A DNA stretch of 64,000 bases from Sphaerolaimus hirsutus (lineage: Eukaryota; Nematoda; Chromadorea; Monhysterida; Sphaerolaimidae). Made by a program: the position numbers and the translations under genes. Position 1 is the first letter of the stretch, and each line of letters starts with the position of its first letter. The notes beneath the pieces were generated by a model that saw nothing but the letters and a program-made list of their open reading frames with translations, was not told the origin of the DNA and did no database searches. This document shows, piece after piece, positions 13,201-63,167 of this stretch. The stretch spans positions 23,143,927-23,207,926 of the forward strand of contig OZ038451.1 of NCBI GenBank assembly GCA_964036195.1. Reading direction: 5' to 3'.

Positions 13201-16200
13201 GGCACTGTGTCGACTTTGTCGTTGTTGCCGCCGCGGTTGTCCGATTGCCAGAATAGTCGGACGACCACCACGCTTAGATTTTCGGAGTAGCCGTAACTTT
13301 GCGCCATGTCCTGCGAGTGTTTCGATTGTGTCTACCATTGACAAGGGGATGATTTTGAAGAAATTTAATATAATCTCAGAAAATTTTGCAAAAAGAAAAT
13401 ATAATAAAATCTATTTGGAAAAACATGAAGAAGATTTAAAATTAAAAAAACTGGGATATTTTTTACACTTTGTGATATGTTTTCAAAATCCCAGAAAGTC
13501 TCTCAAAGTCAAAATAGAATTCAATATTTCTACCGTGCCAAAACCCTACCAAAATGTAAATAAATAAAAAATCTTATATTTTTGATATCTTCTGATAGTT
13601 GAAGAAAAAAAACAAAGATTTTGTTAATGCTAATCAAGAATCCCCCATCAAACCACCCCATTCACCTGCAAATGCTTGGCAGCGAGCACGGCGTTCGATA
13701 TGGGTCTGACCCTTCTGACGGCCTCGGTGTGGCCCATGGCTTGCCACAGGCCGTGCGAAGCCACTATGATGAACTCGTCGCCGGTGCACAGGTCCAGGTG
13801 CATGCAGTGCGGCCGCGCCGTCACGCCGGGGAACTGGGGGAACATGGTGTTTGTAATTTGGCATTGAAGAATGGATGTTTTGAGATGGATTTCACCATTT
13901 TTTTTCATTGTATCAAAAACGAAAATAAAATGGGATCTTTCTGGAAAGTCCTGGAGAAAATAAAAGTACCTAGGTATAAAATCTCATGATTTTTTTTCGG
14001 TGACGTTTTATTTTACGTTTCATTATCGTTATGCTGCAACTACACCTTTAAATTCACCTCATTCTAAACTGAAAATTTTCGGGGTGAAGAACATTCAGGG
14101 ACATTGAACACGTAAAAAAACATTGTTGCACATGTAGTTTTTATTTACCAGTTAGTGATGGAATAGCGCCATGGCGCTGGCGCCCTTTAATGGCGCCAAA
14201 GGGCGCCAGCGCGATGGCGCCATTGTTCCTGGTTTTTTCATCACTAGGTAGTTTACCAACTCAACCCTCCTAATCCCTTTCCCAAAAACCACCTGAAAGT
14301 ACGATCCAATCTGCCTTGTACACCTCCCCCGTCCATTGACCTCGTTCCCCTCAGTCACAATAGCAGCGGCGGCGCGCACGCGTTCGTACTCGTCGCCGGC
14401 GCTGTCCAGGGTGTGCTTGCGCGACAGGACCAGGGGCCTGCCGCGGCGGCACAGTACCGCTTCGCAGTTGCCCACGTTGCACAGGTTGAGTCTGTGGGTG
14501 GAGGGCGTTTGTGTGCGGTTAATTTGAGTCGTTTGTGTGTGTGGGTGCGTCACTGTTTGCTACTGGCTACAGACAAAGTGCAAAGTCATTTTTCAGAAAT
14601 TTTAACATTTTGCATGACATTTGACAAATTTGGATGACACTGCATGACATTCAACAAATTTATAAACACGACACTTTACATTATGTTTGACACCTTAATT
14701 TCAACTTTACATGGTGCGGGACTGCCCCCAGCTGATGTCTGTACCTGTACTGCTGCGCTTGTTTGTCGCCCTGCGCGGGCAGCGGCACAATGTGCATCAA
14801 AACAATGCTGGCGCCGACTTTCTGTCCGCGCTGCTCCAGATTCAAATGGCCGGATATCACCGAATACTTCAAATAAGCGTGATCTTCGTGCACGGGCGCG
14901 AGCTGCTTTTCGGCCTCCTCGGCGACCTGGGGGCAGTCCCAGACCCTGTAACATGCCCTGTAAAGTGTCAAATGTCATGCAAAGTGTCAAAAGTCATGGA
15001 AAATGCCCTGCAAAATGGCAACTCGGTTGCCATTTTGCAGGGCATTTTCCATGACTTTTGACACTTTGCATGACATTTGACACTTTACACGGCATTTTAC
15101 AGGGTCTGGGACTGGCACCAGCTGTGCCGCTTTGCTCCTGATGAACTGCGGGATTTCGTCGTTTAGATTGCCGTCTATGACGGCCGCCAGCGCCGTGGGT
15201 TGGGCGCACGTCACCAGGCGGAAGTCGGCGCAGCGCACTTGCGAGATGCACAGCCTGCGTGGCGACGTGACTGACTGTGCGTTTATATTTAAATTCAACT
15301 TAAAATCAGGTTCCACATGCAGCAGAGCCTGTAAAATTCCCTGAAAAATGTAAAATGTCATGCAAAGTGTCAAAGGTCATGTAAAATGCCCGGTAAAATG
15401 ACCAACCTGTTGGCAAACTGGCTAACTTTAGATACTTTGCATTACATGAGATTACATAAATTGAGATTTTCCAGGCATTTTACATGACTTTGACACTTTG
15501 CATAACATTAGACATTTTACAGGCTCTCGCAATCCCCCATCCAATCCCTCCCCACAAACTTATTCCTCTCCCCACTAGTCTCGCTGAATCCAATCTGCCA
15601 CGCCCCATTGCCGTTGCGGCCATTTCCATCGTTCGACGAGTCCGCAGTTTCGCAGCCGGACGACGATGCAGAGGAGTGCTGCTGGTGCGGCTTGGAGTTG
15701 GTGCCGGACCCGTTCAGGCGCACCAGCGAGACGGCGCGAGAGCGACTGAGGGGGATTGGTTTTGGGCTCTTTGTGTTTGTTGGATATTGGGAGTGAGGTG
15801 AGAAATGTGGCCGTGTCGCCCGCCGGGGAGCAACCCAGATCCTGTAAAATGTTATGTATAGTTTCAAATGCCATGCAAGTGTCAAAAGTCATGTAAAATT
15901 CCTTGGAAATATCAAACGATCGGTAAAAATAGAATAAAATAAATTAAGACATTTTACAGGGCATTTTCAGGACATTTGACACTTTGCATGACGTTTTACA
16001 TTTCACAGGCCATTTTACAGAGTCTGGGAGTGGAACCTACATTTCAATCCATTTATTTAATCTCACACAAAAATAAAACCCACGGCTGGTCTGCCCAATC
16101 CACGTCAATATTGAGCATTGGGTTGCAGCTCAAGTCCACGTGCTTCAAACTGGTAGCTGACGAAAACAGGCGCTCAATAACCGCGGACATATATTCCCCA

Positions 16201-19200
16201 GCCTCCAAGCAATTATTGGCCAGGTCCAAAGTGGCCAACTTGCTGCACTGAGCTATATCACTTGGCAATGATCGGAGACAATTTGAATGCGCATTGATGA
16301 GTAATATCGTGTTGCCCACTGTGGGCACCAGATTTGTGGGCAGACGGGTCAGGCGGTTGCCAGCTATTGAGAGCTGTTCCAGTGTGGTTAGGCGCGTGAA
16401 ACAGCTGAGGGGGAGTGGTGGATTTTTGTGGCTAGTGGTTACTGTTGATTTCACCTTGGTCTAATTATGCAAGTAGACAATATGTACAGGTGACAAGTCA
16501 CAAGTAATTTCATTTAGAAAAGTACTTGTCACTTGACTATTACAAGTTTTGAATTTGAACATCACTTGAATTTTCTGGTCACTTGACTATGGGTACAGTT
16601 GACAATCAAGAGAACCCCATTGAAGTTTGTAGAAAGTACAAAGTATACATAAATAAATTTACAACTAATCTGACTGCCCAAAAAAGCGTGTACCGTATTT
16701 CTTGTAATAGAAGAGTGCCGTTATAATTTTTCATCAACTTTTTACTTGCCGTTTTATTGGAGGTGCCGCTCAATTGGAGGTATGCTGTTCTATTAGAAGA
16801 AATACGGTAGTTTAACCTTTCTAAGTCTCACCTTTCGTCCAAATGCGTCAGTCGATTGTAGGAAAGATCGAGCACCTTGAGGCGGCGGTAGCCAGTCACA
16901 ATAGGCACGCAATTGTCATCGAGACAATTCGCTGCCAAAATTAGCACTTGCACTTTATTCAAGTCGTGGAATGCGTTCAGCTGAGGCAGCGCGGCGAGGA
17001 AATTTTGAGCCACGTTCAATACTCTTAATCTGTGTTTTTGGTCATAATTAATTACACATGCCACGCAAGCTGCATAACGTTTTAGGGAGAATAATTTTTC
17101 CAGAATTTTCCAGATATATTTTATTATATTTTCCCTTTGATGGATTTTCTGAAATTTTTCAAAATATCAGAAAATATGAAAAAATATCTCATAAATACTT
17201 ATTTATGGATATTCTCAGTAGGGAGATGCTTAATATTTTTATTTTTGAGAGATTTAGTAAAATTATTTTTAATCATATTTTCTCAAACTCATCCATTTTT
17301 GAATGCTATACGCCGCACTGCTATATGAATGCACTGCTATTAGCATTGGAAAAATCTCTGCGAGATTTATATTTTAAAAAATCTCAGAAAATAAAAGATC
17401 TTCTGAGATTTATATTTTTTCAGCGATTTTCCAGAGAGATTTAATTATATTTTCTTTTCTTTAATCGAGAGATTTTCTGAGATTATATTTGATTATATTT
17501 TCCAAAAACGGATGATTTTTTATGCTAACTGCTATTTAAATGCTATACGAAAAATGCTTTCCATTTACCTGTGCATGGAAGCGAGCATTTCATTCGGCAG
17601 TCTGTCCAACTTGTTGTGGTGCAGCAATAGCACCTCCACGCCGCAGTTTTCGAAGCGCGAAGGAAGGCGTGATATACGGTTGTGATGTGCATCCAGCACA
17701 CGCAAGCCGCCCAGACGGCAGAAAACGCTGTGCAAGTGTGCAAGTGTGATGTGAGAACAAACAAGAAAGATGTGTTGGGGTCAGACTGTGTAAAATGCCA
17801 TGTAAAATGTAAAATGTCATGCAAAGTGTCAAAAGTCAAGTAAAATGTCAAACGACCAGAAAAATTGTGCCTTTTTACAGGACATTTTCCATGACTTTAG
17901 ACACTTCACATGACATTTTACAGAGTCTGGGAGTAGGAAAAAGTCTCTGGTGTGGTACTCACTCATGTGGCAGCTCTGCGAGCCTGTTGTTGTGCACTAT
18001 GAGCTTGTCCAAGTGCGGCAGGTGCGCCAGCCAGTCGGGCAGACACGTGAACCGGTTGCTGCGCGGTTGAAAAGGATTTGCCCTACTTATTTGTCATAAT
18101 AAACGTGTTGAGTTATGTTTGCTTACTTTGCGATATCCAGAATCTTTAGACGTTTCGGTAGGTTCTTGCAGTGCAGCTCTTCCAAACCTGCGAGATCGAA
18201 CGAAAACTATTTACTTATTCAGCTTCCCATTGCAGCCACAACCCAATTAACACCAACGATTATATCTCGCATTGACCAGCGTCAAGTGCGCGCCATGGAG
18301 CATCACTCCGAGCAAACCAGTCCTTTCCACCTCTAAACTCTGAAGCATACACAATTGGCTCAAGTCCAAATATGCCAGCGGCGACATGTTGTGGTTGAGC
18401 ACCAGGTGCGCCAGCGAGCTGAACGCGTTTGTGGTTGGTAGAACGTAGTCCGAGCGAATTCGATTTCGCCGTAGGTCCAACTGTGATTGGAGTTTTTCAT
18501 TTTGTGAATAAATGCGATGAGTTTTGCTAAATATTAAAACTCTATTGAACATATTTACACTTTCGATCACGTGATTTGAAGCGCTGATTAGATAGTTTGT
18601 TATAGACTACTACGCTTTGACTGGATCGTTGAATAGTCAATAGGGCACAGAAAGGTTGTCAGGCGATGTTTGGACGAGTCACAAACGAGTCGCATAACTC
18701 CACCCTCCACAGTTCCAGCTTGATGTAATATACGTATGTAATAAATATTTACCGTATTTCCTCGAATTAACCCCCCCCCCCTCGAACTGTCCCCTAAGTA
18801 TATGTTGGTTATAAATAAGTGCTAATTTCTCCGGGGACCCACTTCTATAACAAACCGTTGTTACATGGCCAGCCCTCTTAATGACCTCCTCGCTGATAAA
18901 AGTCTCGATCAAATTGCCCGCCAGCCTCCAATGCTGCACCTTGCCCATTTTCAACAAAACTTGAGGCACGCAGTTGAAACGATTGAATGATGTATCCAAA
19001 TGGGTTAGTATACTGCAGTCGGCCAGAGTGAGAGGCAGCTGTGTCAGCTGGTTGTTGCATAAAATCAACTTTCGAAGACTGCAAATTGGGGGGGGGGGGA
19101 TTTTTGTGCTGACGTTTGTTTGGCATTCTGCGCTTACGCAGCAAAAATGGGTGTTTCGAAGTGTTGTGAACACGCAGACGCTTCACGAAGCTGAGCAGCA

Positions 19201-22200
19201 CTTCACTGAAGTTCACGGAAATTTTCGTGAAGACACTTCACACACTTAACCATGATTTTGTTGACAAATTATAAACGTTGATGAAGTGTGTGGAAACGCC
19301 AGCATCGCGACGTGTCTTCCACAAGTTCCACAAGCATGTGAAGCATGCGTGAAGCGACATGCTTTGGAAGACACTTAACCTAGGTTCTCATGAAGCGTGT
19401 TGAAGCCCAGGGCTTCACGCACTTCCAACCCGCTTCCCCACACTTCACGGGCCCATTTTTTGCTGCGTTGTGTTAAATTTCAGCGCGGAGCTCACTTTTT
19501 CAACCGGTTCACTTCAGCCGGAACTTCAACCAAACCATTGGTAGACAAATTCAGATCAGTCAACGCTGGAAGTTCTAGTAATGATTTTGGTAAGCGGCCA
19601 AGTCTGTTGTCAGCCAAGTTCAAGCATCTCAATGAACGCAAGCGTGTCAAATCATTCAACCAGCCCAAAGGTGGCGACAACAGCTGAGAATTGAAGGAAA
19701 AAAATTTAATGCATGAGAAATATTTATGTTGTATTTTTATAAAAACTAACAAGTTGCATGGGTTTCTCTTTGATACAGTTGTGGCGTAAATTCAGTGATG
19801 TCACCAGTCTTTCAGTGCTCATGGCGAACACTGATTCAGGCACGTATTCGAGATTCTGATTACTCAAGTCTGTCGTTGGTGGCCGAGTCGACGATGCCTG
19901 ACAAGCACATTTTTTTCTGTTGTCAGGGGTTGTATTTACATAAGACGAATCAGTGCATAAATCGATTTGCGTGCAAAAATCGATAGTTTTGAATGGTCAG
20001 GGATTTTTTGATCCTATCACGCATATGGTGCATCGATAAAGATTTAAGGAAAATAAATATATGTAGCTATATACTCGTATGTATTTACCTCAATCGTTGT
20101 TATGGCTTTCCTGATGACTTTAAAAATCTCTAACTCCCGAAATATAGGTAGATTTGCACGCGTTAATAAATAACCACACTCGAAAATAAATTTTTAACAA
20201 ACTACATCACCCCCAAACCCATCCACCCAACCAACAGTAAGACACTTCCCCAGCCACAAACTGGTCTCAGCATCATCCTCAAATGCCAGATACACAGTAG
20301 AAGTATGGTGTTTCCTCGTGTTACTCGGGTAGGATATTTTGATGCACCGGCCCCGCCCCCTGACTCGAGCTTCCTCGACTCGAGCCCTGCTGAGTGGCAC
20401 CGTTTCTAGGAGGGAGGGAATCGCTCCCACTGTGGATAGGGATCTGTTGCTGCCGCATTCTGGGGGGGGGGGTTGAAGGTTGGATTTTTTTGTTGACTGT
20501 CTGATGCTGATTTCAGGCTCTGTCAAGTGATAAGTTGACAAGAAAAGTGACAAGTAAGGTTGTGGAAAACTAAAATTAAAGTCGAAAGTGGGAAGTTGGA
20601 AGTTATACTGGAACTTATACATAAAAGATTGTGACTAAATATTTATGTAGTTGTAAGTATAAAAAAAATTTCCTTTTAACTATTCAAAATATTTTTTTAA
20701 ATTTATTGTCATTTTCAACTTCACGCGTTACCTTTCTTGTCATTTTCTTCGTTGCCTGTTTCTGAGAATTTCTATTGTCAAACATCACTTGGCAAAATGC
20801 TGAAATGGCTCCAAATCGACAAAAAAACGTCTGAGTGCCGCTCAGTAAATACTCACCAAGATCGAGCGCATAAATCGCAATTCTGGCATTGGGCGCCAGG
20901 GCGCAACCTCTACGCGTCCAGTGTTGCAACAGTTTGCCTTTTCGCACTGAGCAGACAGCAGAAAGCAGTGTCTCATTGGCGCTGCCGCACGCTGTCGTCG
21001 ATGATGTGATTGAGGGTGACAGGGGCCCGGAGATTACTGATTGGCATCCGTCCAAATCATGCTCGAAGCTAGATGACATCGTCACTGAGAATGTGTTGAG
21101 AGTTTTCAGTGGGGTATAGTTTGATATGATATGTTGATCGGGGACCACTCCCAGACACTGTAAAATTCAAAATGCAAAGTGCCTAAAGCATGCAAGATGT
21201 CATGAAAGAAGTCACACAAGCATGGAAAAATGAACAAAATTTTACATTTTGCAGTGCATTTTACATCACGTTTGACACTTTGCATGACATTTTATATTTT
21301 ACATGACATTTTACAGGGTCTGGGAGTGGCACCAGCAATAACTCCAGTCTCGTCACTTACACGGATCAATATCCTTCTTGTAGGCGTTTGGACTGCCGGC
21401 CAGAAACCTCACAGCGGCTGAAAGCGACAGCAAATCGCCGCTGTACTGTCTCATTTTCGCATCGTCCATCCCAATAGCGGCGAGATACTGGTCAACTATA
21501 GCCAATGGTCTTTCGTTGCCGGACATTCGTCTGATTGTGTGGCCGGCCAAGTCGATGTGCAGCGCGTCGCGCGGCATGCCCAACTTGGCGCACACGTCCG
21601 CCGCCGTGGTGCCTGTTTTTTGTGGTGAGAATTGACGGAAGTGTGCCTGAATAGCCCTACGCACACTTTTTAGTTGACAGATGATAAATCTTAAGCTAGT
21701 AGATTTTTTTAGCACATTTGAGTTTACCGAAGCGAGTAGTCGGTCAACTACTGTTACGTGCAGATCCAAAAATAGTGTTATTGTGAACTCAAATGTGTTC
21801 AAAACAGACTTATTCGGATTTCGGGAACAGATTTCGGAAAAAAAACACTGCAAAAACACACCCAAGTAGCAGGGCACCACGAGCGAGCGGCACGACCCCG
21901 GCTCTGGATCGAACACCCTTATAAATCCTCTGTCCGTGCCGCCGACCAGCCAGGCGCTTTTCTCGCGTCCGGTAAATTGCTGGACTTCTGCCGCGCTTTG
22001 GAACGCGGACGGCCGCCGGCTGTCGCGCGAGTGCTGTTTGGTGGGTCGGTTGGCATGTTATTGGATGGTTGTTCACTTGTTTGAATGTTTATTCATTTGA
22101 CTTGACACTTAGCAATCGTGGTTCACGTTGGCAGTGAGCTAACAGTGACTAGTGCATGCAACTGCTGTAAAATAACGAAAAAATTTGTCGCCTTTCTAAC

Positions 22201-22645: not shown

Positions 22646-22824
22646 CAGGGGCAGTCCCAGACCCTGTTATATGCCCTGTAAAATGTCAAATGTCATGCAA
22701 AGTGTCAAAAGTCATGTAAAATGCCCGGTAAAATGGCAAACAACCGGGCATTTTACATAACTTTTGACACTTTGCATGACATTTGACATTTTACAGGGCA
22801 TTTTACAGTGTCTGTGACTGGCAC
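22646..22824 (-). mobile_element. introner-like element, copy H (between the first PHLPP exons)
   Basis: Minus-strand start GTGCCAGTCACAGACACTG follows exon-like sequence ending CATCCTG; the element ends CTGGGACTGCCCC then TGGTGGACC. If the whole element is the intron, the reading frame joins as HSHPG|GPLQRQ, but the 3' splice dinucleotide would be TG rather than AG. An ordinary CTGCAG acceptor lies 13 bases further at 22632, which would need a different upstream frame. Confidence 0.7.
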
Positions 22825-38114: not shown

Positions 38115-38680
38115 TCGCATTAGCATTTTTATACCTAAGATTTCAAAACATGCTGTGTGGTCTAATTGAGGGTCGATAGCATCAAATGTGAGGTCGGAAC
38201 CAGGAAAAACTAAATGCTGTGGTCTATACCATTGGAAAGCTGAGAAAATTCTCTTTCAGAATCTACCACTCTCAAGAAGGTTCACTGTCACGATTTTATA
38301 CCTAAGATTTCAAAACGTGCTGCATGCACTACTCTTGGGTGATTGCATCTCATGTGAGGCCGGAACTAAGGAGACGTAACGGCTATATTTTATACCATTG
38401 CGAAGCTGAGAACATCCTCTTTCAGAATCCACAGCCTCCCCAGAGGCTTGCATTAACATTGTTATACCTAAGATTTCAAAACGTGCTGTGTGGCCTAATC
38501 GAGCGTTGATAGCATCAAATGTGAGGTCAAAACCAGGAAAAACTAAATGCTGTGGTCTATACCATTGGAAAGCTGAGAAAATTCTCTTTCAGAATCTACC
38601 ACTCTCAAGAAGGTTCACTGTCACGATTTTATACCTAAGATTTCAAAACGTGCTGCATGCACTATAGCCGACTGACCCTT
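38115..38680 (+). repeat. satellite monomers, first orientation
   Basis: About 3.4 monomers of roughly 167 bp, recognisable by ATACCTAAGATTTCAAAACG and AAGGTTCACTGTCACGATTT. They run opposite to the larger array that follows. The array meets the gap at its left, so its extent is unknown. Confidence 0.9.
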
Positions 38681-41600
38681 GATTAGGGAGCACAGCACGT
38701 TTTGAAATCTTAGGTATTTTTTGCTAACGCGAGCCTCTGGGGAGGCTGTGGATTCTGAAAGGGGAAGTTTCTCAGCTTCACAACAGTATCAAATATAGCC
38801 GTTACGTCTCCTTAGTTCCGGCCTCACATGCGATACAATCAACCCTGGATTTCTGCAAACAGCATGTTTTGAAATCTTAGGTATAAAATCGTGACGGTGA
38901 ACCTTCTGGAAAGTGGCAGTTTCTGAAAGAGAATTTTCTAAGCTTTCCAATGGTGTGAATCACAGCATTTAGTTTTTCCTGGTTCCGGCCTCACATGTGA
39001 TACAATTGACCATAGATTGGGGCGCATTCCATGTTTTCAAATCTTATGTATAAAATCGTGACGGTGAACCTTCTGGAGAATGGTAGATTCTGAAAGAGAA
39101 TTTTCTAAGCTTTCCAATGGTATAGACCACAGCATTTGGTTTTTTCTGGTTCCGGCCCCACATGCGATACAATCAAACCTAGATTAGGGTGCACAGCACG
39201 TTTTGAAATCTTAGGTATAAAAATGCTAACGCGAGCTTCTGGGGAGGCTGTTGATTCTGAAAGAGGATGTTCTCAGCTTCACAACGGTATCAAATATAGC
39301 CGTTACGTCTCTTTAGTTCCGGCGTCACATGTGATATGATTGACCCTGGATTTCTGCAAACCGCATGTTTTGAAATCTTAGGTATAAAATCGTGACGGTG
39401 AACCTTCTGGAGAGTGGTACTATCTGAAAGAGAATTATCTCAGCTTTCCAATGGTATGAATCACAGCATTTAGTTTTTCCTGGTTCCAGCCTCACATGTG
39501 ATACAATCAACCCTAGATTAGAGCGCACATCACGTTTTGAAATCTTAGGTATAAAAATGCTAACGCAAGCCTCTGGAGAGGCTGTGGATTCTGAAAGAGG
39601 AGGTTCTCAGCTTCACAACGGTATCAAATATAGCCGTTACGTCTCCTTAGTTCCGGCGTCACATGTGATATGATCGACCCTGGATTTCTGCAAACCGCAT
39701 GTTTTGAAATCTTAGGTATAAAATCGTGACGGTGAACCTTCTGGAGAGTGGTACTATCTGAAAGAGAATTATCTCAGCTTTCCAATGGTATGAATCACAG
39801 CATTTAGTTTTTCCTGGTTCAAGCCTCACATGCAATACAATCAACCCTTGATTGGGGCGCATTCCACGTTTTCAAATCTTATGTATAAAATCGTGACAGT
39901 GAACCTTCTGGAGAGTGGCAGTTTCTGAAAGAGAATTTTCTAAGCTTTCCAATGGTATAGACCACAGCATTTAGTTTTTCCTGGTTCCGGCCCCACATGC
40001 AATACAATCAACCCTAGATTAGAGCGCACATCACGTTTTGAAATCTTAGGTATAAAAATGCTAACGCTAGCCTCTGGGGAGGCTGTGGATTCTGAAAGAG
40101 GAGGTTCTCAGCTTCGCAACGGTATCAAATATAGCCGTTACGTCTCCTTAGTTTTGGCCTCACATGTGATACAATCAACCCTCGATTTCTGCAAAAAGCA
40201 CGTTTTGAAATCTTAGGTATAAAAATCCTAACGCGAGCCTCTGGGGAGGCTGTGAATTCTGAAAGAGGATGTTCTCAGCTTCGCAACGGTATCAAATATA
40301 GCCATTACGTCTCCTTAGTTCCGGCCTCACATGCGATACGATTGACCCAGGATTTCTGCAAACAGCACATTTTCAAATCTTATGTATAAAATCGTTACGG
40401 TGAACCTTCTGGAAAGTGGCAGTTTCTGAAAGAGAATTTTCTAAGCTTTCCAATGGTGTAAATCACAGCATTTAGTTTTTCCTGGTTCCGGCCTCACATG
40501 CGATACGATCGACCCTAGATTGGGGCGCATTCCATGTTTTCAAATCTTATGTATAAAATCGTGACGGTGAACCTTCTGGAGAGTGGTAGATACTGAAAGA
40601 GAATTTTCTAAGCTTTCCAATGGTATAGACCACAGCATTTAGTTTTTCCTGGTTCCGGCCCCACATGTGATACAATCAAACCTAGATTAGGGCGCACAGC
40701 ACGTTTTGAAATCTTAGGTATAAAAATCCTAACGCGAGCCTTTGGGGAGGCTGTGGATTCTGATAGAGGATGTTCTCAGCTTCGCAACGGTATCAAATAT
40801 AGCCGTTACGTCTCCTTAGTTCCGGCCTCACATGCGATACGATCGACCCTGCATTTCTGCAAACTGCATGTTTTGAAATCTTAGGTATAAAAATCCTAAC
40901 GCGAGCATCTGGGGAGGCTGTGGATTCTGAAAGAGGATGTTCTCAGCTTCGCAACGGTATCAAATATAGCCGTTACGTCTCCTTAGTTCCGGCCTCACAT
41001 GTGATACGATCGACCCTGGATTTCTGCAAACCGCATGTTTTGAAATCTTAGGTATAAAATCGTGACTGTGAACCTTCTGGAAAGTGGCAGTTTCTGAAAG
41101 AGAATTTTCTAAGCTTTCCAATGGTGTGAATCACAACATTTAGTTTTTCCTGGCTCCGGCCTCACATGCGATACGATCGACCATAGATTGGGGCGCATTC
41201 CATGTTTTCAAATCTTATGTATAAAATCGTGACGGTGAACCTTCTGGAGAGTGGTAGATTCTGAAAGAGAATTTTCTAAGCTTTCCAATGGTATAGACCA
41301 CAGCATTCAGTTTTTCCTGGTTCCAGCCCCACATGCGATACAATCAAACCTAGATTAGGGTGCACAGCACGTTTTGAAATCTTAGGTATAAAACTCCTAA
41401 CGCGAGCCTCTGGGGAGGCTGTGGATTCTGATAGAGGATGTTCTCAGCTTCGCAACAGTATCAAATATAGCCGTTACGTCTCCTTAGTTCCGACCTCACT
41501 TGCGATACGATCAACTTTGGATGTCTGCAAACCGCATGTTTTGAAATCTTATGTATAAAATCGTGACGGTGAACCTTCTGGAGAGTGGTAGATACTGAAA

Positions 41601-53360: not shown

Positions 53361-53567
53361 TTACGCTTATAGAACTTATAGGCCTTATAGAACTTCAAAA
53401 ACACGCACACAATATTTCAATAACTTTTTTAGAATTTTCAAAATGTTTTGATTATAGTTTTAGTCTAAAACGCCACATTCCCACCACTCGCAGCACTAAA
53501 AACAATCCCACATTCAACACAATCAATCACACACTAAAACCGGGCCCCAATTAAATACATTCCAACA

Positions 53568-56500
53568 ATGTCGCTCTACATTCCCCTACTCACCGGCCTG
53601 TCGTGGCTGCAGTCGATCACCATATTCAGCACGCTGTTGGTGCTGTTAGCCGGTCTTTTGGTGCTGGCACTGCCCGAAGTGGGCCTGGGTGCTAGGATGA
53701 GAAAATTGATCGCTTATGATGATAGGTGCCTGGCCAAGGGATTGGAGGCTTTGATTGGCATGTGCAGAGTGCCTAAGAGGTGGGTTTGGGGTCTGAGGGG
53801 TATTTACATTACTGGAGACTGGGTGCCACTTCCGGACCACGTAAAATGTCATGCAAAGTGTCAAAGTCATGTAAAATTGCAAAAAAAATTTTTTTACCGT
53901 TCGTTTGATATTCTCCAGGGCATTTTTAATACATGACTTTTTTATACTTTACATGGCATTTTCCAGGGAATTTTTCATGACCCTTGACACATTGCATGCC
54001 ATTTTACTACATTCCACCAGTGCGTACATCCTACCACTGAACCCCCATCCCGCAGCTACTTCTCGCACTTCTACCTGACCGGCATCGTCTCTGCCACGGT
54101 AGCGCTGTGGTTCGCCTGTGGCCTGTACCTGTGGCCGTCTATGTGCGCTGACGAGCAGCACAAACGTCTGCGGCAGGGCGTCGACCCGCTGCTTGATACA
54201 AAACATAGCCAGTGGGCTGGTGGTCGGTTTTGGGGTGATTTGGGGGGTCTTAAAAGGTGCCCCCCAGGCGGTTTCAGATTTTTTGAAGGTTGAGCTGAAG
54301 ATTTTTTTGTGGGTTTGGGGTTCAATATATCGTTTTTTCCACGTGTGGAGGACGAAAAGGGTGAAAAATCGCCAAAACTAAGGACGTATGTAGGAGAAAT
54401 ACGTATATACCTAGCTATAAAACGTTGAAATAAATGAAAAATGTACAGAAATTGATGATTTTGGGTGAAAATCAAGGCAAAATCGCTTTACGTAGGTAGA
54501 TGGCCGGCTCATTTTTGGGGTATCGGGGGTTTTCATGGGCCCAAAATTTAGCCTGTGTATAGATGGTCCTGGGCGTTGAGACGATAAATCGCCACCCTCA
54601 ATAGACCCCGTGTCAAATTTCATTTTTAATTCGCGATTCGTAAACTCATTTCTCCCATTCAGTTGACGGGCCGGCGGCTCTATTGGCGGTCACCTTAGTA
54701 CTGCTGCACTGCGTGCGCCGCTGCTACGAGTCCACCTGCGTGCAAGTGTTCTCGCCCTACTCGGACATGACGCTGGCGCACTACGCCCTGGGCCACTGGC
54801 ACTACTTTACGCTGGCTCTGTGCGCCCTGGCTGATGCGAATGTGCTGCTGGGCAAGGCGGATAAAAAGATGATGTTTGACGGTGCGTTGTGATGAAAGTA
54901 GTGTACCGTATATATTTCGATAAACCCATTTGGAGGTCATTTTTTAAGATCACTTAATTTAGAATTTGAGATGATACGTGCGAACAATTACTTCTTCCAT
55001 GGAAATGTGCAACGAAAGGATAAAATTCGCTGTGGCACTGTTCCGAAATAAACAGAAATGGCAGTGGACAGACACATCGTTTCAGTAAGCTCAAATGTGC
55101 GCACAGCTGATTTATGAGCTTTCAAAATTTTTGTTGAAAATTAGTGATGTGTAGTCATTCCCTGTCCCGTGTCAGAGGAGAGTTATTCAAGCGGTTATTA
55201 ATCCCTCCAATATCACCTGTGGCGATCCTTCCACTATTTGTTTCCCAATAAAATAGGCTAAAAAAACCTTCACCACACCTAACCTCCAAATCCGACAAAT
55301 CCCACACTGCAGGGAAGCTGTCCTGGTTTGTCACCGAGCGCCTGTGGGCCCACCTGGTGGGCTCGGTGCTGTTCACGTACCTGAGCTGGGTGCAGTCGCG
55401 CTGCCTGCGCCAGTTGGCCGCGCTGCGCCGCCGCCCCAGCGGCGCCGTGTACACGTACGCGCACGGGATTGTTGTGGGCGGGTACTTTGATGTGGTTTCG
55501 TGCCCGCACTTTTTGTGTGAGGTTCGTGTGGGTGGTTGGGGTTTGTTTTTGTTGGGGTTTTTTTTTGGGGGGGGGCGGGGGGTTCGGAGCAGTGAGGGAA
55601 TTAGGGAAGTTTTTAGCGGTTTATCAGATTTAGTAAAATTAGTAAAAAATTAGTAAAAATAATGCTTTGGTGAAAATTTTGTCGGATTCTACGATCAGCA
55701 ATAATTATTTGGAAATTTTGTCGGATTCTACGATCAGCAATAATTATTTGGAAATTTTGTCGGATTCGTATGTATTTATGGGAAATGGGAATTTAAAGGT
55801 ACTTATCAAAAGATTGCGGGACTATTGGCTTTCAGCAGTGATCATTTTGACGATCAGCAAACAATCGCTGTTTGATGAATCAGCAATCAAAACTGTCCCG
55901 GGTGCCGTATTTGCTTGAATAATCCCCCTGGGGTTTCGTCAGACATTTTTGAGGGGGGGGGACTATTCAAGGGGGGACTATTATTTCGTCAAAATTTTCA
56001 AGCATGTTTCCATCAACCATTTCACGAAATATGCGTGATAAACACAATAACGTGCCTTTTTGTTAAAATTAGGTATAACATATTAATTAAATCTTTAAAG
56101 GAGGGGATATTCGAGGGGGGAATTATTATTTCCTCACTCGTCTTACAGGGGGGATTATTCGAGGGGGAGATTATTCTAGGGGGGTCTATTCAGGCAAATA
56201 CGGTATGTATATCACGAATGGCTGATTTTTTCAATGTTTTGAAAAAAACGTCCAACAAAAAATCAACGGGCGTCGTTGAAAAACAACGCGTTTTTCGTCC
56301 CTAAGATAGCTAGATAGACATGTAAATATGTGTGTAACGCTTTCGGAGGCGGCACCACACTCCCACTGCAGGTGGCAGTCCCAACCCCTGTAAAGTGTAA
56401 AGTAAAGTGTCAATTATCATGCAAAGTGTAAAATGTAAAGTAAAGTGTAAACGAAGGTGTCAAATGCAGAGTAAACTGTCAATATATTCATGCAAAGTGT

Positions 56501-56840
56501 CAACTTCACTTTACTTTTGTCACGTTGCGTGACAATTGACAATTTACTTTGAATTTGACACTTTACTGGACACTTTACAGGGCTATGGAACTACCCCGGT
56601 AAATGATAATGATATTTAAATCGAACAAACCTCAATCCACGTCTCAATCGCGCGCAGGTCGGCATCTACCTGTCGCTCCACTTAATCCTGGGCATTCAGG
56701 CACCCACGTGGGGCTGCGTGACTCTGTTCGTCTGCGTGAACCAGATTATCGCAGCGCTCATCACGCACAACTGGTATAGAAGGCACTTTGGCAAATTGTA
56801 CCCCGAGGGGAGGCACGCTATACTTCCATACTTACTCTAG
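53568..56840 (+). CDS. SRD5A3: SRD5A3, polyprenal/polyprenol reductase (complete, 5 exons)
   Basis: Exons 53568-53779, 54056-54219, 54663-54881, 55313-55521 and 56658-56840 agree in phase and give 328 residues, close to the 318 of human SRD5A3. Start: the first ATG, in CAACAATG, begins MSLYIPLLTGLSW. SRD5A3 is a multipass ER membrane enzyme of the steroid 5-alpha-reductase family needed to make dolichol for N-glycosylation. Supporting motifs: SYFSHFYLTGIV (the family's FSHFY start of the reductase region), LLHCVRRCYESTCVQVFS, LAHYALGHWHYF, and the C-terminal YFDVVSCPHFLCE, LHLILG, ITHNWYRRHFGKLYP and ILPYLL. Introns 1 and 4 contain introner-like copies J and K. I see no break; it should be functional. 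Convergent with the gene at 58728-63167. Confidence 0.95.
53821..54018 (+). mobile_element. introner-like element, copy J (SRD5A3 intron 1)
   Basis: Starts GGTGCCACTTCCGGACCACG on the plus strand, i.e. with the donor-like end towards the 5' side of its plus-strand host, with CATGCAAAGTGTCAAAGTCA and TTGACACATTGCATGCC arms. The right end (ACTACATTCCACC) is degraded. Splice sites of the intron lie outside. Confidence 0.7.
55905..56205. repeat. ACCGTATTTCCTCG family repeat (SRD5A3 intron 4)
   Basis: GCCGTATTTGCTTGAATAAT at the left and CTATTCAGGCAAATACGGTA at the right are inverted. Internal sequence has several G runs such as GAGGGGGGGGGACTATTC and GAGGGGGGAATTATT, each preceded by TTCGA or ATTCAA. 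Confidence 0.8.
56371..56599 (+). mobile_element. introner-like element, copy K (SRD5A3 intron 4)
   Basis: GGTGGCAGTCCCAACCCCTG at the left (plus strand, host sense) and CAGGGCTATGGAACTACCCC at the right, with arms of GTAAAGTGTAAAG and CTTTACTTTGAATTTGACAC words. It is 58 bases upstream of the last acceptor, internal to the intron. Confidence 0.75.
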
Positions 56841-58727: not shown

Positions 58728-61700
58728 TCAAACTACTGCCGCGGCGAACATTGAGCCGCGGCGGTCGGACGGCGCGACCGCGTGCCACAATCGTTCCTCA
58801 ACTTTGTGGCTCAGTGTGTTTTTCTTGCAGCCGGCCGTTTGCTTGGCGGCTCCTGAGTGTAAATTGTGTTGACGGTTGATTGTGTTGACGGTTGAAATTG
58901 TGTCGGCGCTGTTTTAGTGGTCTGATTGGAGGCTATTTTTACAGGGAACGTTACCGTATTTTGATGAATGTAGACACGTGAAGAAAATGTGCATCGGATA
59001 CAAACATAATGGCTGCGCACACTGGTGTACCATCGAAATTTGGAACACTCCAATCCGTTTTGAACACTTGAGTTTACCAGAATGAATCGTTTGATCATCA
59101 TCAACAGTAGTTGACCGACTCTTCATTCTGGTGAACTCAAATGTGTTGCCGGGTAAACTCAAGTTTCCCAATTTTCGCTAGTGTTCTAGTTTGCCGTGCT
59201 TTGTTATGGCGACCGGAAAAACCCAAGAAAAAAATTGGGTTTTTTTTCTGTTTCCCACCCTTTCACTCGACTCACCCGGACTGCGTGCCCTCTGCTTGGG
59301 CAGGTAGAGCCTGTCGGCGGTCTTCTGCTGGTGCAGATCGCTCGGGACTTCGCGATTGGCGGCGGCGTGGATGCACGGCTCCGACGCGGCGCGTTTATCG
59401 TGCGCACCTTCGGCGTCCTTGTCGCTGCCCTGTTCGACGCAGGACGACCGTTTGGTAGCTGCTACTGTGCTGCAGTCGCAGGTGTTGCGCTCTGATGGAG
59501 CTGTCGTCACCACGGCTGGCACGTTGCCGTACTCGTACTGGGTGGGGGAGTGCTTGGACAATTCACGTGTTGGGTTCTCAGGTGAATTCAGATGTGGAAC
59601 TGGTTTCGCACCACTGAAAGTGTCATGTCAAGTGTAAAATGTCAGACAAAATGTGTCAAATTCGGGTAACGTGTTTTACTAAGCTTTTTACATTTTGCAT
59701 GTCACTCGACGAACTTAATGGACCGGTCACTTGTCAACTGACAATAAAATTGATTTTCTCATCAATTATTTTACAAAATCCGTCTTGACATGTTTTCTTC
59801 CCAGTCATAAATTCTTATCACATAAAACATCACATTTGAAGCCAGTTGACACGGCGCAGAATTGCTTCCAGATTGTCATTAAGTTGTCAATACGGTCTCA
59901 AAATTGTCAAAATATTGCATGTGAACGAATACCCACAGGTTCGCGCAGCATGATGGAATTGTTGCCCCTGTGCACCTTCCTGTCGACGGTGTTCACCACC
60001 AGCACCAAGATGACCGTGCCGACTGCAGCCACACAGCAGGCGAAAATTACGACCGACGCGCAAACGACACCATTGACTGCGGCGTCAGTGCCGCCGATGC
60101 TTTTCACGTGATTCTCGTCTGGGTGTTAGGGTGATATTTACACTTCGGCGAAAAATATAGGTGAAACGTAAAATACAAAGTCACCGATTTTTTTTCTTTT
60201 TTTCGAGTTTTTTATTCGAAATTCGTGTTAAAAATTCAATTTCTCGCAAAAATTTATCATGTGCGGGATATTATTTTCTAATTTGAATGAAACGTTTTGA
60301 TGAAAAATGGACCGACGTAAAATTAACTTTACGTTGACACATTTTCCGCAGACGATTGCGTAAAAAGGTGCTGCACAAACCGGAACGAAAAATTCCGACG
60401 CAAAACTTCACTCACATTTGACTATCTTTTTAATTATGGCCTCCATGCTCCTAATCATTGCAGTGATTCGTTCCCGCTGCCAACGTTGATCAATATCATC
60501 CGTGGATTGTGCATCTGAAAACATGTTGCGCATCGAGCTAAGGCCAATGTCGTTGGCTATTGGCAACCTGCCAGCTGTGTCTATTCGCTCCAACAACGAA
60601 GTCCAGTGGAGGGGGCGCTGTTCTGTTGGGCCATACAGGACTAAGCCTGAGGGTGGGTGGTAAAATGCTTGCATTATTTGGTTGATACTATTAGGTATTC
60701 TAGTGTGTTAGCCCAGCGGCCATTTCCAAACTGTGACAAATTGCACAATGTGACAAATGTGACAAATTGCAGATGATGTTTTAAAGAACCTTACCGTAGC
60801 TGGAATCTGGAACTAATTAATATAAAGATACCAGCGGAGTAGAGATCGGTTGGAATTTGTCTAGTCATTTGTCAACGGACTGAAATCCAGGGTCCAGTCC
60901 CGCAAGTTTGACAGGTTAAGAGTGGAAAGTCAAGATGCAAGTAAAATGACAAAATATGAGTAAACAGTAAAGTAAAATGAAAAGTGACAAGTTAAAAGTC
61001 AAGAGTGAAATTAAGTGACAAGTTAAAAGTCAAGAGTCAAATGACAAGTTACAAGTGAAAAGTTAAGTCACTTTCACAGATTTTTACCTGTCACGTGTCA
61101 TTTAACTTGATTTAAGTCAAGTGTAATGAAAGTGACTTAACTTTTCACGTGTAACTTGTCATTTGACTTGACACTTCACTTTTAACTGGTCACTTGTCAA
61201 TTTACTTGTCTCTTGACTTGACTCTTGACTTTTAACTTCTCACTTGTCATTTTACTTTACTCTAAACTTATCTTTTGTCATTTTACTTAACTCATGACTT
61301 TTGACTTTTCACTTGTCAACTTACGGGACTGGCCCCAGGGCAATGCAAATGAACTTACCGAAAAGATAGTTAATGCGAATGGCATCTTGCATGGCACTCC
61401 TGTACAGCTGGGGGCAGTCCCAAGCCCTGTAAAGTGTAAAGTAAAGTGTCAAATGTAAAGTCAAATGCAAAGTAAAGTGTCAATCAAAACAAAAAAGAAA
61501 ATATTTTTTTACTGAATGTTGAATGACAATTGTCAGTTTACTTTGCATTTGACTTTACATTTGACACTTTGCTTTACACTTTACAGGGCTTGGGATTGGC
61601 ACCTGATCGTTTCTGGTAGTGCACTCTTCAGTGAAATCATCCTGATGCAGCGACAATTCACTCAAGGCAGTCGCCGGCCAAACGTCACTGAAAGTGTCAC

Positions 61701-63167
61701 ATGGCACTTGTCGGCACTTGGAACACCGTGTATTTATGCATTGTTGTTAAAACGTATTTACGTTTACTCGATAAGTACGGATACTCGAGTACTGCGTAAA
61801 TACGTTTACCTTTCCTCCCGACAAAAATACCGGTACTCACTTACTCGTCCACCTTTTGAAAGTACGCGAGTACCGAAAACGTGTTTTAACTGGACATATA
61901 GAGTGACAAACATGAGATTATATTTCCCCCAAAATACGTATCTGGAGAAAAAACACACACACACATTTGATTTGAGTAAAAATTTAAAAAATACTGACTG
62001 TTACGTTTTCAGCTAGAGAAAATACTCACTTTTACGTTTTCTGCGAGAAAAAATACCCGCTTTTACGTTTTTGATGAGAAAAAATACCCGCTTTTATGTT
62101 TTCTCAGGAAAAAAGTATTTTACTCACGTTTTACGCAGTGTAAAAGTAAAAAAAAATACTTTATGTTTACGTTTACTTTGAAAAAAGTTCAGTACTTTTC
62201 ACAACTCTGTATTTATGTCATTCTAAATCCTAACAACACAAATAATTTTCCTAACCTCATAAAACTTTGACAATCGCCATCCGTTGTTGTGTGCCATAGA
62301 TTTTCTTTTAAACATAGTTTTCTGGTGAATTCGCTGTGGCCTTCCAATGTGCAAGATGCGTAGATTTCCTCGTGCGGATCTTTCAATTTGGTACTGTTCC
62401 TGCGACATGGACATTTTCATCAGTGAAGTTTAGCTGTGAAATATCTATGAAATATTTATGCTCCCTACCCTGTGCATATTTACAGTGCGGTCGCTTCAAA
62501 ATGACTCAGAAAAAGAACACATTGGTGAAAGACATTTTAGATATAAGCATTATCCAAAAGGTTTTGAAAAATTCTCCATTCTCCTATTCGGTGTGTATAT
62601 TATTGATCCATCATTTACCTTTGGCACACTGCCAACATCTGGCGGACCAACAGCGCCCTGACAGCAACATCATTCTTGGACAGCCTCCCAATTATTTGAT
62701 CGTTGGAATCGTAATTTTCATTCCACCTATCCCCACCTAATTCAGACAATATGTGCCACTGCCAAAAAAGCACCAAAATTCCACAGAAACTGGCAGTAGC
62801 CAGGAGGCGCTCCCAAACCGTGCAAAATGTCCTGTAACATGACAAAATGTTATGCAGGGTCATGACAAATGTTATGCAGTGTCATGACAAATGTTATGCA
62901 GGGTCATGACAAATGTTATGTTACATGACAAGTGTCAAAAGTCATGTAATGTCAGAAAATGGCAAAGAAACTATTGTCATTTTACAGGGAATTTTACATG
63001 GCTTTTGACACCTTGAATGACATTTGACATTTTACAGGGCATTTTACAGGGTCTGGGAGTGGCACCAGGAAGGCCAGCCATACTGGCAACATCCAATAAA
63101 TTTTATGGTGGACAACTTTTGTGGGTTGAGGTAGCGCTTGATAGGATGGTGAAGTGTTGCAATTCAT
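58728..63167 (-). CDS. unrecognised single-pass (type I) membrane protein, 9 exons
   Basis: Minus exons with agreeing phases: 63066-63167 (start ATG at 63167 or 63092), 62619-62758, 62256-62399, 61603-61687, 61359-61407, 60416-60646, 59937-60118, 59276-59537, 58728-58852; about 439 residues (414 from the second ATG). The N-terminus has a hydrophobic signal (MLPVWLAFLWHILS). The extracellular part has a Cys cluster (ASCTLEGHSEF, RKLCLKENLWHTTTDGDC) reminiscent of a hormone-receptor-type Cys module, then a helical, charged region (DQLYRSAMQDAIRINYLFG, RWQRERITAMIRSMEAIIKK). One membrane segment follows (GVVCASVVIFACCVAAVGTV, ILVLVVN) and a cytoplasmic tail of about 145 residues rich in Ser, Lys and Arg with YEYGNVP. 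Role unknown; receptor or adhesion protein is possible. Intron 4 is exactly introner copy L. Confidence 0.8.
59040..59168. repeat. GAGTTTACC fold-back element, clearest copy
   Basis: CGTTTTGAACACTTGAGTTT, ACCAGAATGAA at the left and TTCATTCTGGTGAACTCAAA, TGTG at the right, around CAACAGTAGTTGACC. It defines the dispersed family. It lies in the last intron of the membrane-protein gene. Confidence 0.75.
59611..59735. mobile_element. introner-like element, copy O (remnant)
   Basis: GAAAGTGTCATGTCAAGTGT, AAAATGTCAGACAAAATG and, inverted, TTTTACATTTTGCATGTCA show the family words, but both ends are degraded. In intron 59538-59936. Confidence 0.5.
60887..61339. mobile_element. introner-like element, copy M (expanded, 453 bp)
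   Basis: Ends CCAGGGTCCAGTCCCGCAAG and CTTACGGGACTGGCCCCAGG are inverted. The arms are many tandem variants of AAGTGACAAGTTAAAAGTCA on one side and TGACTTTTAACTTGTCACTT on the other, so the arms have grown by short-repeat expansion. In intron 60647-61358. Confidence 0.75.
61408..61602 (-). mobile_element. introner, copy L: the element is exactly the intron
   Basis: On the minus strand, exon 61603-61687 ends GATCAG and the element begins GTGCCAATCCCAAGCCCTG; it ends AGGGCTTGGGACTGCCCCCAG immediately before exon 61359-61407, CTGTACAGG. The exons join in phase 0 (TTRNDQ|LYRSAM). The arms are GTAAAGTGTAAAGTAAAG-type inverted repeats. It is the second element in the window that equals an intron, in a different gene from copy C. 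Confidence 0.92.
61739..62209. mobile_element. hAT-like MITE, copy 4, with exact 8-bp target duplication
   Basis: CATTGTTGTTAAAACG and CTTTTCACAACTCTG ends flanked by TATTTATG on both sides (61731-61738 and 62210-62217). Body with TTTACTCGATAAGTACGG, GAGTACTGCGTAAATACG and repeated AAAAATACCCGCTTTTACG. In intron 61688-62255. Confidence 0.9.
62803..63065 (-). mobile_element. introner-like element, copy N: supplies the donor of intron 1
   Basis: On the minus strand exon 1 ends TTCCTG and the element begins GTGCCACTCCCAGACCCTG, so the 5' splice site is its first base pair. The other end (GTTTGGGAGCGCCTCC) lies 44 bases before the acceptor used (TTTTTTGGCAG at 62759). It contains three tandem copies of CATGACAAATGTTATGCAG on one arm. 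Confidence 0.8.

Follow-up and report, generated by a model that had tools for sequence, protein, structure and literature searches.

Candidate introners resembling NuwaI transposons in the nematode Sphaerolaimus hirsutus, with target-derived AG and TG intron ends

Introner families with the features of DNA transposons are known from Micromonas and Aureococcus. Introners have been described as repeated introns that carry terminal inverted repeats and duplicated target sites, which fits an origin from non-autonomous DNA elements (Gozashti 2022, PMC9860276). Among animals and land plants, just two groups, both of them animals, have introners according to the same survey, the main text of which does not mention nematodes (Gozashti 2022, PMC9860276). 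NuwaI transposons of the PHIS superfamily, which occur in animals only, duplicate a 5′-CWG-3′ target and have terminal repeats of 12–61 bp that usually begin with GGG (PMC4482050). The hosts given in the available portions of that description are 12 bony fish, a beetle, a crustacean, a mollusc, and an anthozoan, and nematodes are not mentioned in them.

Unusual intron ends have also been described in animals. Fritillaria has many non-GT-AG introns, for which introner transposons with weak splice sites are one possible source, and it exemplifies an animal that is able to change its U2AF and to accept other intron ends (PMC13326754). Human TG 3′ splice sites belong to U2-type introns and are reported only as an alternative to a close AG and never as constitutive (PMC2374985). 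By title, we found no open-access article on nematode introners or on nematode GT-TG splicing. Here we describe a family of short foldback elements in the nematode S. hirsutus that probably represents NuwaI-like introners, in which the element would supply the GT, a copy of the duplicated target would supply the 3′ end, and TG would be used constitutively; excision from RNA is the reading that we infer from the genomic DNA.

The family was recognized in a window of 64,000 nucleotides, the whole stretch of DNA that was analysed. Its minus strand carries a PHLPP gene, for which a 15-exon model with a single open frame was assembled. The model starts after the N-terminal part and runs from the leucine-rich repeats past the PP2C domain, and all of its 14 introns are GT-AG, the boundaries having been picked to that end. 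Pfam recognizes the PP2C part (4.5e-26). In protein searches that scored the 8000 candidates with the most words in common, for PHLPP as for an SRD5A3-like protein described below, the best PHLPP match was that of Plectus sambesii (43%), followed by vertebrates (31–34%) and a fly (29%).

The predicted intron between PHLPP exons 11 and 12 (15118..14927, minus strand) is 192 bp long and lies in phase 0. In the minus-strand reading, its surroundings are ...GCACAGCTG|GTGCCAGTCCC...GGGACTGCCCCCAG|GTCGCC..., and both terminal sequences that a sequence-only reading had claimed for the intron were found exactly at their positions. The upstream exon (15119..15254, minus strand; LCISQVR...KAAQL) and the downstream exon (14745..14926, minus strand; VAEEAEKQ...) were placed by both the PHLPP model and alignment. 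When joined, they align without a gap at KAAQL|VAEEAEKQ to the PHLPP proteins of Plectus sambesii, two vertebrates, and a fly, which bears out the phase 0 junction KAAQL|VAEEAE in conserved PP2C sequence proposed earlier.

The element itself, GTGCCAGTCCC...GGGACTGCCCC, occupies 14930..15118 on the minus strand, that is, the intron minus its last 3 bases, and its own ends are GTGCC...GCCCC. It is followed by a 3′ target-site copy, CAG (14927..14929, minus strand), which provides the terminal AG of the intron, and preceded by a 5′ copy, CTG (15119..15121, minus strand), which lies in the exon as the final codon (Leu) of the upstream exon. This copy of the element ends in AG, and its target pair is mismatched, with CTG upstream and CAG at the intron end, making it a mixed case. 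Including the target copies, the element is a foldback whose arms (14927–15022 and 15026–15121) are 96% complementary and 3 nt apart. Apart from one copy of the target site, the predicted PHLPP intron was confirmed to be a foldback MITE. The earlier equation of intron and element holds at the start, which coincides with the element end, but not for the last CAG, which is target-site copy and lies outside the element. Likewise, the suggestion that the element brings its own splice sites applies to the GT, which is within the element, but not to the 3′ dinucleotide, which comes from the duplicated target (CAG or CTG).

With at most one mismatch, GTGCCAGTCCC occurs eight times in the window compared with 0.57 expected, and none of 100 shuffles got to eight. 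Chance matches of the element ends were ruled out, as each end greatly exceeds its chance expectation in the window and the genome control was 0. Merged BLAST hits mark 15 places in the window rather than the 16 or so family copies estimated earlier; many of these are degraded or nested in longer introns, and some could be assigned to no gene. Besides the PHLPP copy, three others match intron-like gaps (22824..22646, 61602..61408, and 63065..62801), with coding frames that were taken from open frames only. The first (22646..22824, minus strand; CTG/CTG) lies upstream within the PHLPP region, in a stretch rich in Q, and would be a GT...TG intron (HSHPG|GPLQRQLSDG). The other two are in a gene at 59200–63074 (minus strand), namely a CAG/CAG copy at 61408..61602 (minus strand; RNDQ|LYRSAMQ) and a CTG/CTG copy near the start of the gene at 62801..63065 (minus strand; MLPVWLAFL|ATASFCG). 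This gene, which carries two exact element copies, possibly encodes a membrane protein; the part of it that was tested matched neither a Pfam entry nor, up to E 1, any protein.

The same gene contains a longer element of 445 bp (60891..61335, minus strand) that has GGG ends and lies between CTG/CTG target copies; only short internal stretches of it resemble the copy at 61408. It lies within a GT-AG intron (61358..60647), as would be expected of a relative without the GT end, and can be regarded as a natural control. Nested copies were also found on the minus strand in four introns of the PHLPP model: two degraded ones at 14587..14731 (in intron 14744..14492) and 15323..15523 (in intron 15559..15255), and two more at 15834..16036 (in intron 16083..15746) and 17782..17922 (in intron 17962..17728). 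A further copy (21145..21335, minus strand) was placed by eye in a longer intron-like stretch in the N-terminal part of PHLPP. Two copies on the plus strand (53819..54017 and 56372..56597) are nested in introns of an SRD5A3-like (polyprenal reductase) gene at 53500–56840 (plus strand), the exons of which were placed by eye; its hand-joined and incomplete protein had five matches, all from nematodes. Long inverted repeats are also densely clustered at 38127–39335.

Across the genome (348 Mb, 762 contigs), a strict pattern for both ends recovered 471 exact full-ended copies (240 and 231), while the same pattern read backwards recovered none. A DNA similarity search gave 84 matching rows from the 40 candidates scored of 1132, the palindromic element being matched on both strands, and a DNA search in phages returned no match. 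Two sets of copies were compared. The strict sample comprises the first 50 of the 471 exact copies, all on contig C1, and its pattern imposes a 3′ CWG and a G at −1, so that copies with a 3′ end mutated from CWG are unsampled. The similarity-chosen set comprises 40 copies, 39 fetched and the window's own, with nothing imposed on their ends. Both sets include duplicated regions (L079/L080 and L092/L093, with L091 alongside, in the former; L018/L023, L014/L020, and L027/L038 in the latter), and L024 is the same place as L078.

Target copies in the strict sample are CAG/CAG in 23 cases, CTG/CTG in 17, CTG/CAG in four, CAG/CTG in three, and other in three. CWG is therefore present at both ends in 47 of 50 copies and identical in 40 of 50, the pattern itself fixing the 3′ CWG as well as the final base of the 5′ copy. 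At the unforced positions, C is found at −3 in 49/50 and A or T at −2 in 48/50, and the wider target is CCWGG-like, with C at −4 in 29/50 and G at +1 in 34/50. Where nothing was imposed, CWG is at both projected ends in 25 of the 40 similarity-chosen copies. Copies with GGGG at both ends number 29, compared with the 471 that have GT at one end, a comparison between two slightly unlike patterns, the former of which is palindromic and yields each copy twice in the raw listing. On these sequences, the genome holds many similar predicted introns at unrelated positions, which in the exact cases coincide with an element plus a target duplication, and the duplicated target is CWG, as in NuwaI.

TG-ended copies interrupt conserved genes in the sense orientation. 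Alignments to solved relatives span the junction at copies with a 3′ CTG in EFTUD2 (1.2e-37), RARS1 (3.3e-29), DDX47 (4.3e-25), VMAT (9.6e-24), and BCKDHA (7.3e-13), and in all five the spliced protein aligns without a gap at the junction. The same was observed for CAG-ended copies as regards the spanning alignments in PurL (1.7e-13) and TRPV (1.8e-15). In KCC (4.2e-16), which has CTG as its 5′ copy and CCCCAG at the 3′ end, the alignment likewise crosses the junction and has a 2-residue gap 5 residues before it. Pfam matches cross the junction for Sugar_tr, Cation_efflux, FERM_M, and TIL at copies with a 3′ CTG, and for COMM and ZP-N, both near the cut-off, at CAG copies. When 20 spliced proteins were compared with Pfam, 11 matched at 0.01, some of them below the curated cut-off or short of the junction, and nine had no match. 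The proposal that these are introners is supported by a mobile family with target duplications that sits exactly between conserved exons of several unrelated genes.

Two of these genes were followed through the whole genome. RARS1 gave two half hits at one genomic locus, near 8.233 Mb of contig C1, with RARS-like exons around it as judged by eye, and no second or uninterrupted locus was found in the genome. EFTUD2 gave four strong hits, all of them halves, each of which stops at the same CTG where the sequence is present, and one of which enters an assembly gap inside the element; no uninterrupted copy was seen in the genome.

By a near-universal rule of splicing, introns end in AG; in C. elegans, AG is reportedly not strictly required. 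The 3′ end of the strict copies is AG in 28/50 and TG in 22/50, and the latter depart from the canonical U2 ending. Coding sequence is interrupted by 23 of the 50, of which 13 end in TG and 10 in AG; these were grouped by codon score or homology and include L063, whose Srx match came from a query with some mistyped residues, while the remaining 27 were not called coding. Median divergence from the consensus is 0.085 for the 22 TG copies and 0.083 for the 28 AG copies (p 0.67). Selection for AG was considered and rejected, as the mixed pairs in the strict sample (four CTG/CAG, three CAG/CTG) have no excess towards AG; the similarity-chosen set has five and one, respectively, with one duplicated region counted twice. 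Retention of the element as coding sequence was also rejected, since there are in-frame stops in 12/12 genic TG copies.

It is conceivable, if rather unlikely, that the TG copies are not cut at TG, and that an AG inside the element is used at the cost of a protein insert, or that the genes concerned are damaged alleles. All in-frame GT...AG pairs with ends at most 60 nt from the element ends were listed for the 12 genic copies with a 3′ CTG. Two of them have a small option that would favour such a route (L040 with 3 extra residues and L033 with 4), and six have options that add 14–22 residues (EFTUD2 22, the sugar transporter 14, VMAT 18, L034 18, L039 21, and L063 17). The dependence of human TG acceptors on a nearby AG points the same way (PMC2374985). 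RARS1, BCKDHA, DDX47, and the cation-efflux gene have no in-frame option within these limits, which speaks against an internal AG, as do the gap-free junctions in EFTUD2, RARS1, DDX47, BCKDHA, and VMAT. This reading is further opposed by the presence of RARS1 only with the element and by the equal divergence of TG and AG copies. An AG is found 19 nt before the end in 28/50 strict copies, and in 16/50 there is one at a distance of 9 nt. A nearby AG may help the use of TG, given the human precedent, yet the nearest AG in the EFTUD2 copy is 50 nt before the end. In a GGGAGTG subfamily (L055, L058, L096, and L040), the AG at 9 nt before the end may offer a canonical alternative, at the cost of three added residues. 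As no intact copy of RARS1 or EFTUD2 was seen, and as both have no cheap AG option and would carry stops, their products seem to need the removal of a GT...TG stretch. We regard it as reasonably likely that TG is cut constitutively at about half of the copies, even in essential single-locus genes, and that AG would be dispensable at these 3′ splice sites.

The orientation of the copies bears on how they are removed. The GTGCC end is 5′ on the coding strand in 14 of 15 clear strict cases (p 0.001), a clear case having a codon score of 4 or more and twice that of the other strand, with the score trained on one gene, PHLPP. The corresponding figure in the similarity-chosen set is 9/10. At a threshold of 3, 19/21 strict cases are GT-first, and one of the two exceptions, L071, a sugar transporter, is GT-first by homology; the codon score chose the wrong strand relative to homology for both L071 and L042. 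This bias favours splicing at the RNA level, from a genuine 5′ site, over strand-blind removal from DNA. A hairpin-guided, non-spliceosomal excision to which the exact dinucleotide is irrelevant, as suggested for the introners of Amoebophrya, would suit the very strong predicted folding (−163.7 kcal/mol for the PHLPP copy, and a mean of −0.65 per nt over the 50 strict copies), and the Amoebophrya elements combine inverted repeats and short direct repeats with ends that vary (PMC7789003). We nevertheless hold this to be improbable, because a symmetrical cutter does not need the GT end to be 5′, and a palindromic MITE folds regardless. An older intron at each place, replaced or filled by the MITE, is brought to mind by the several window copies nested in longer introns. 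It is very improbable for the exact cases, which hold only the element and one target copy, with target copies abutting the exon on both sides, and an intron within an intron was rejected there. Least probable, to the point of being barely credible, is programmed elimination from body-cell DNA, which would make splicing unneeded. The ends and target copies do resemble those of transposon-derived eliminated sequences in ciliates, but a strand bias relative to genes would be pointless for DNA excision, and the assembly contains the insertions.

The observed ends and duplications, the precision with which the element fits between exons of conserved genes, its strand bias, and the two genes for which no uninterrupted copy was seen suggest the following mechanism for spliced NuwaI-like introners. 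A NuwaI-like MITE of about 190 bp, moved by a putative transposase, would insert at CCWGG-like sites and duplicate CWG. Its terminal repeats would differ, with GTGCC at one end and GGGGC (read inwards) at the other, and where the GTGCC end is 5′ in the exon sense strand, the element would donate the 5′ splice site GT. The duplicated target would form the intron end, a CAG giving a GT-AG intron and a CTG giving a GT...TG intron, and exact removal of the element with one target copy would restore the exon. The spliceosome would have to accept TG, or alternatively the hairpin may bring the intron ends together. The exonic splice context is CAG|G. CCWGG resembles it, so the target preference of the transposon would already fit splicing.

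As to the source of the family, its ends had been called impossible to assign to a described one. The family has GGGGCAGTCCC at one end and GTGCCAGTCCC at the other, the repeats continuing into the 96-nt arms in the PHLPP copy, and the CWG duplication together with GGG-type terminal repeats resembles what has been described for NuwaI. An autonomous NuwaI partner would encode a DDE transposase and a Myb/SANT protein and would share these ends. The Harbinger-type transposase domain DDE_Tnp_4 has 163 matches genome-wide; the two of these loci that were read lacked the family ends when searched with a rough pattern. Many of the DDE_Tnp_4 matches are nearly identical in score and probably belong to a recently amplified transposon family. 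At a locus with a Harbinger-type transposase match (L103, 3285–3713, minus strand), a family-like palindrome lies directly before the open frame and is perhaps an introner in a transposon gene.

If this reading is true, a nematode joins the animals with introners, with NuwaI as the likely source. It would also suggest why this transposon was suited to the role, in that its CCWGG target is like the splice context and a change of one end from GG to GT yields a donor. The natural CAG/CTG pairs, in which the element differs by a single base, would then amount to a genome-wide experiment on the need for AG at the 3′ splice site. Compared with the introners surveyed by Gozashti 2022 (PMC9860276), the S. 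hirsutus family is alike in its repeated introns, terminal inverted repeats, and target duplications, and differs in having TG for AG in about half of its copies. Inverted repeats, direct repeats of 3–5 nt, hairpins, and non-canonical ends are shared with the introners of the protist Amoebophrya, although the ends of the latter reportedly vary a great deal and their repeats are not specific to a family, whereas S. hirsutus has one family with a fixed GT and WG (PMC7789003). In Fritillaria, introns whose 3′ end is, for example, AC or AU are linked to a duplicated U2AF, while the TG of the S. hirsutus family would come from the target copy (PMC13326754). Human TG sites share the cutting of U2-type introns at TG, and the constitutive use proposed here sets the nematode family apart (PMC2374985). 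The likeness to NuwaI lies in the CWG target duplication and perhaps in the GGG-type end, and the difference lies in the other end of the S. hirsutus family, which begins with GTG (PMC4482050).
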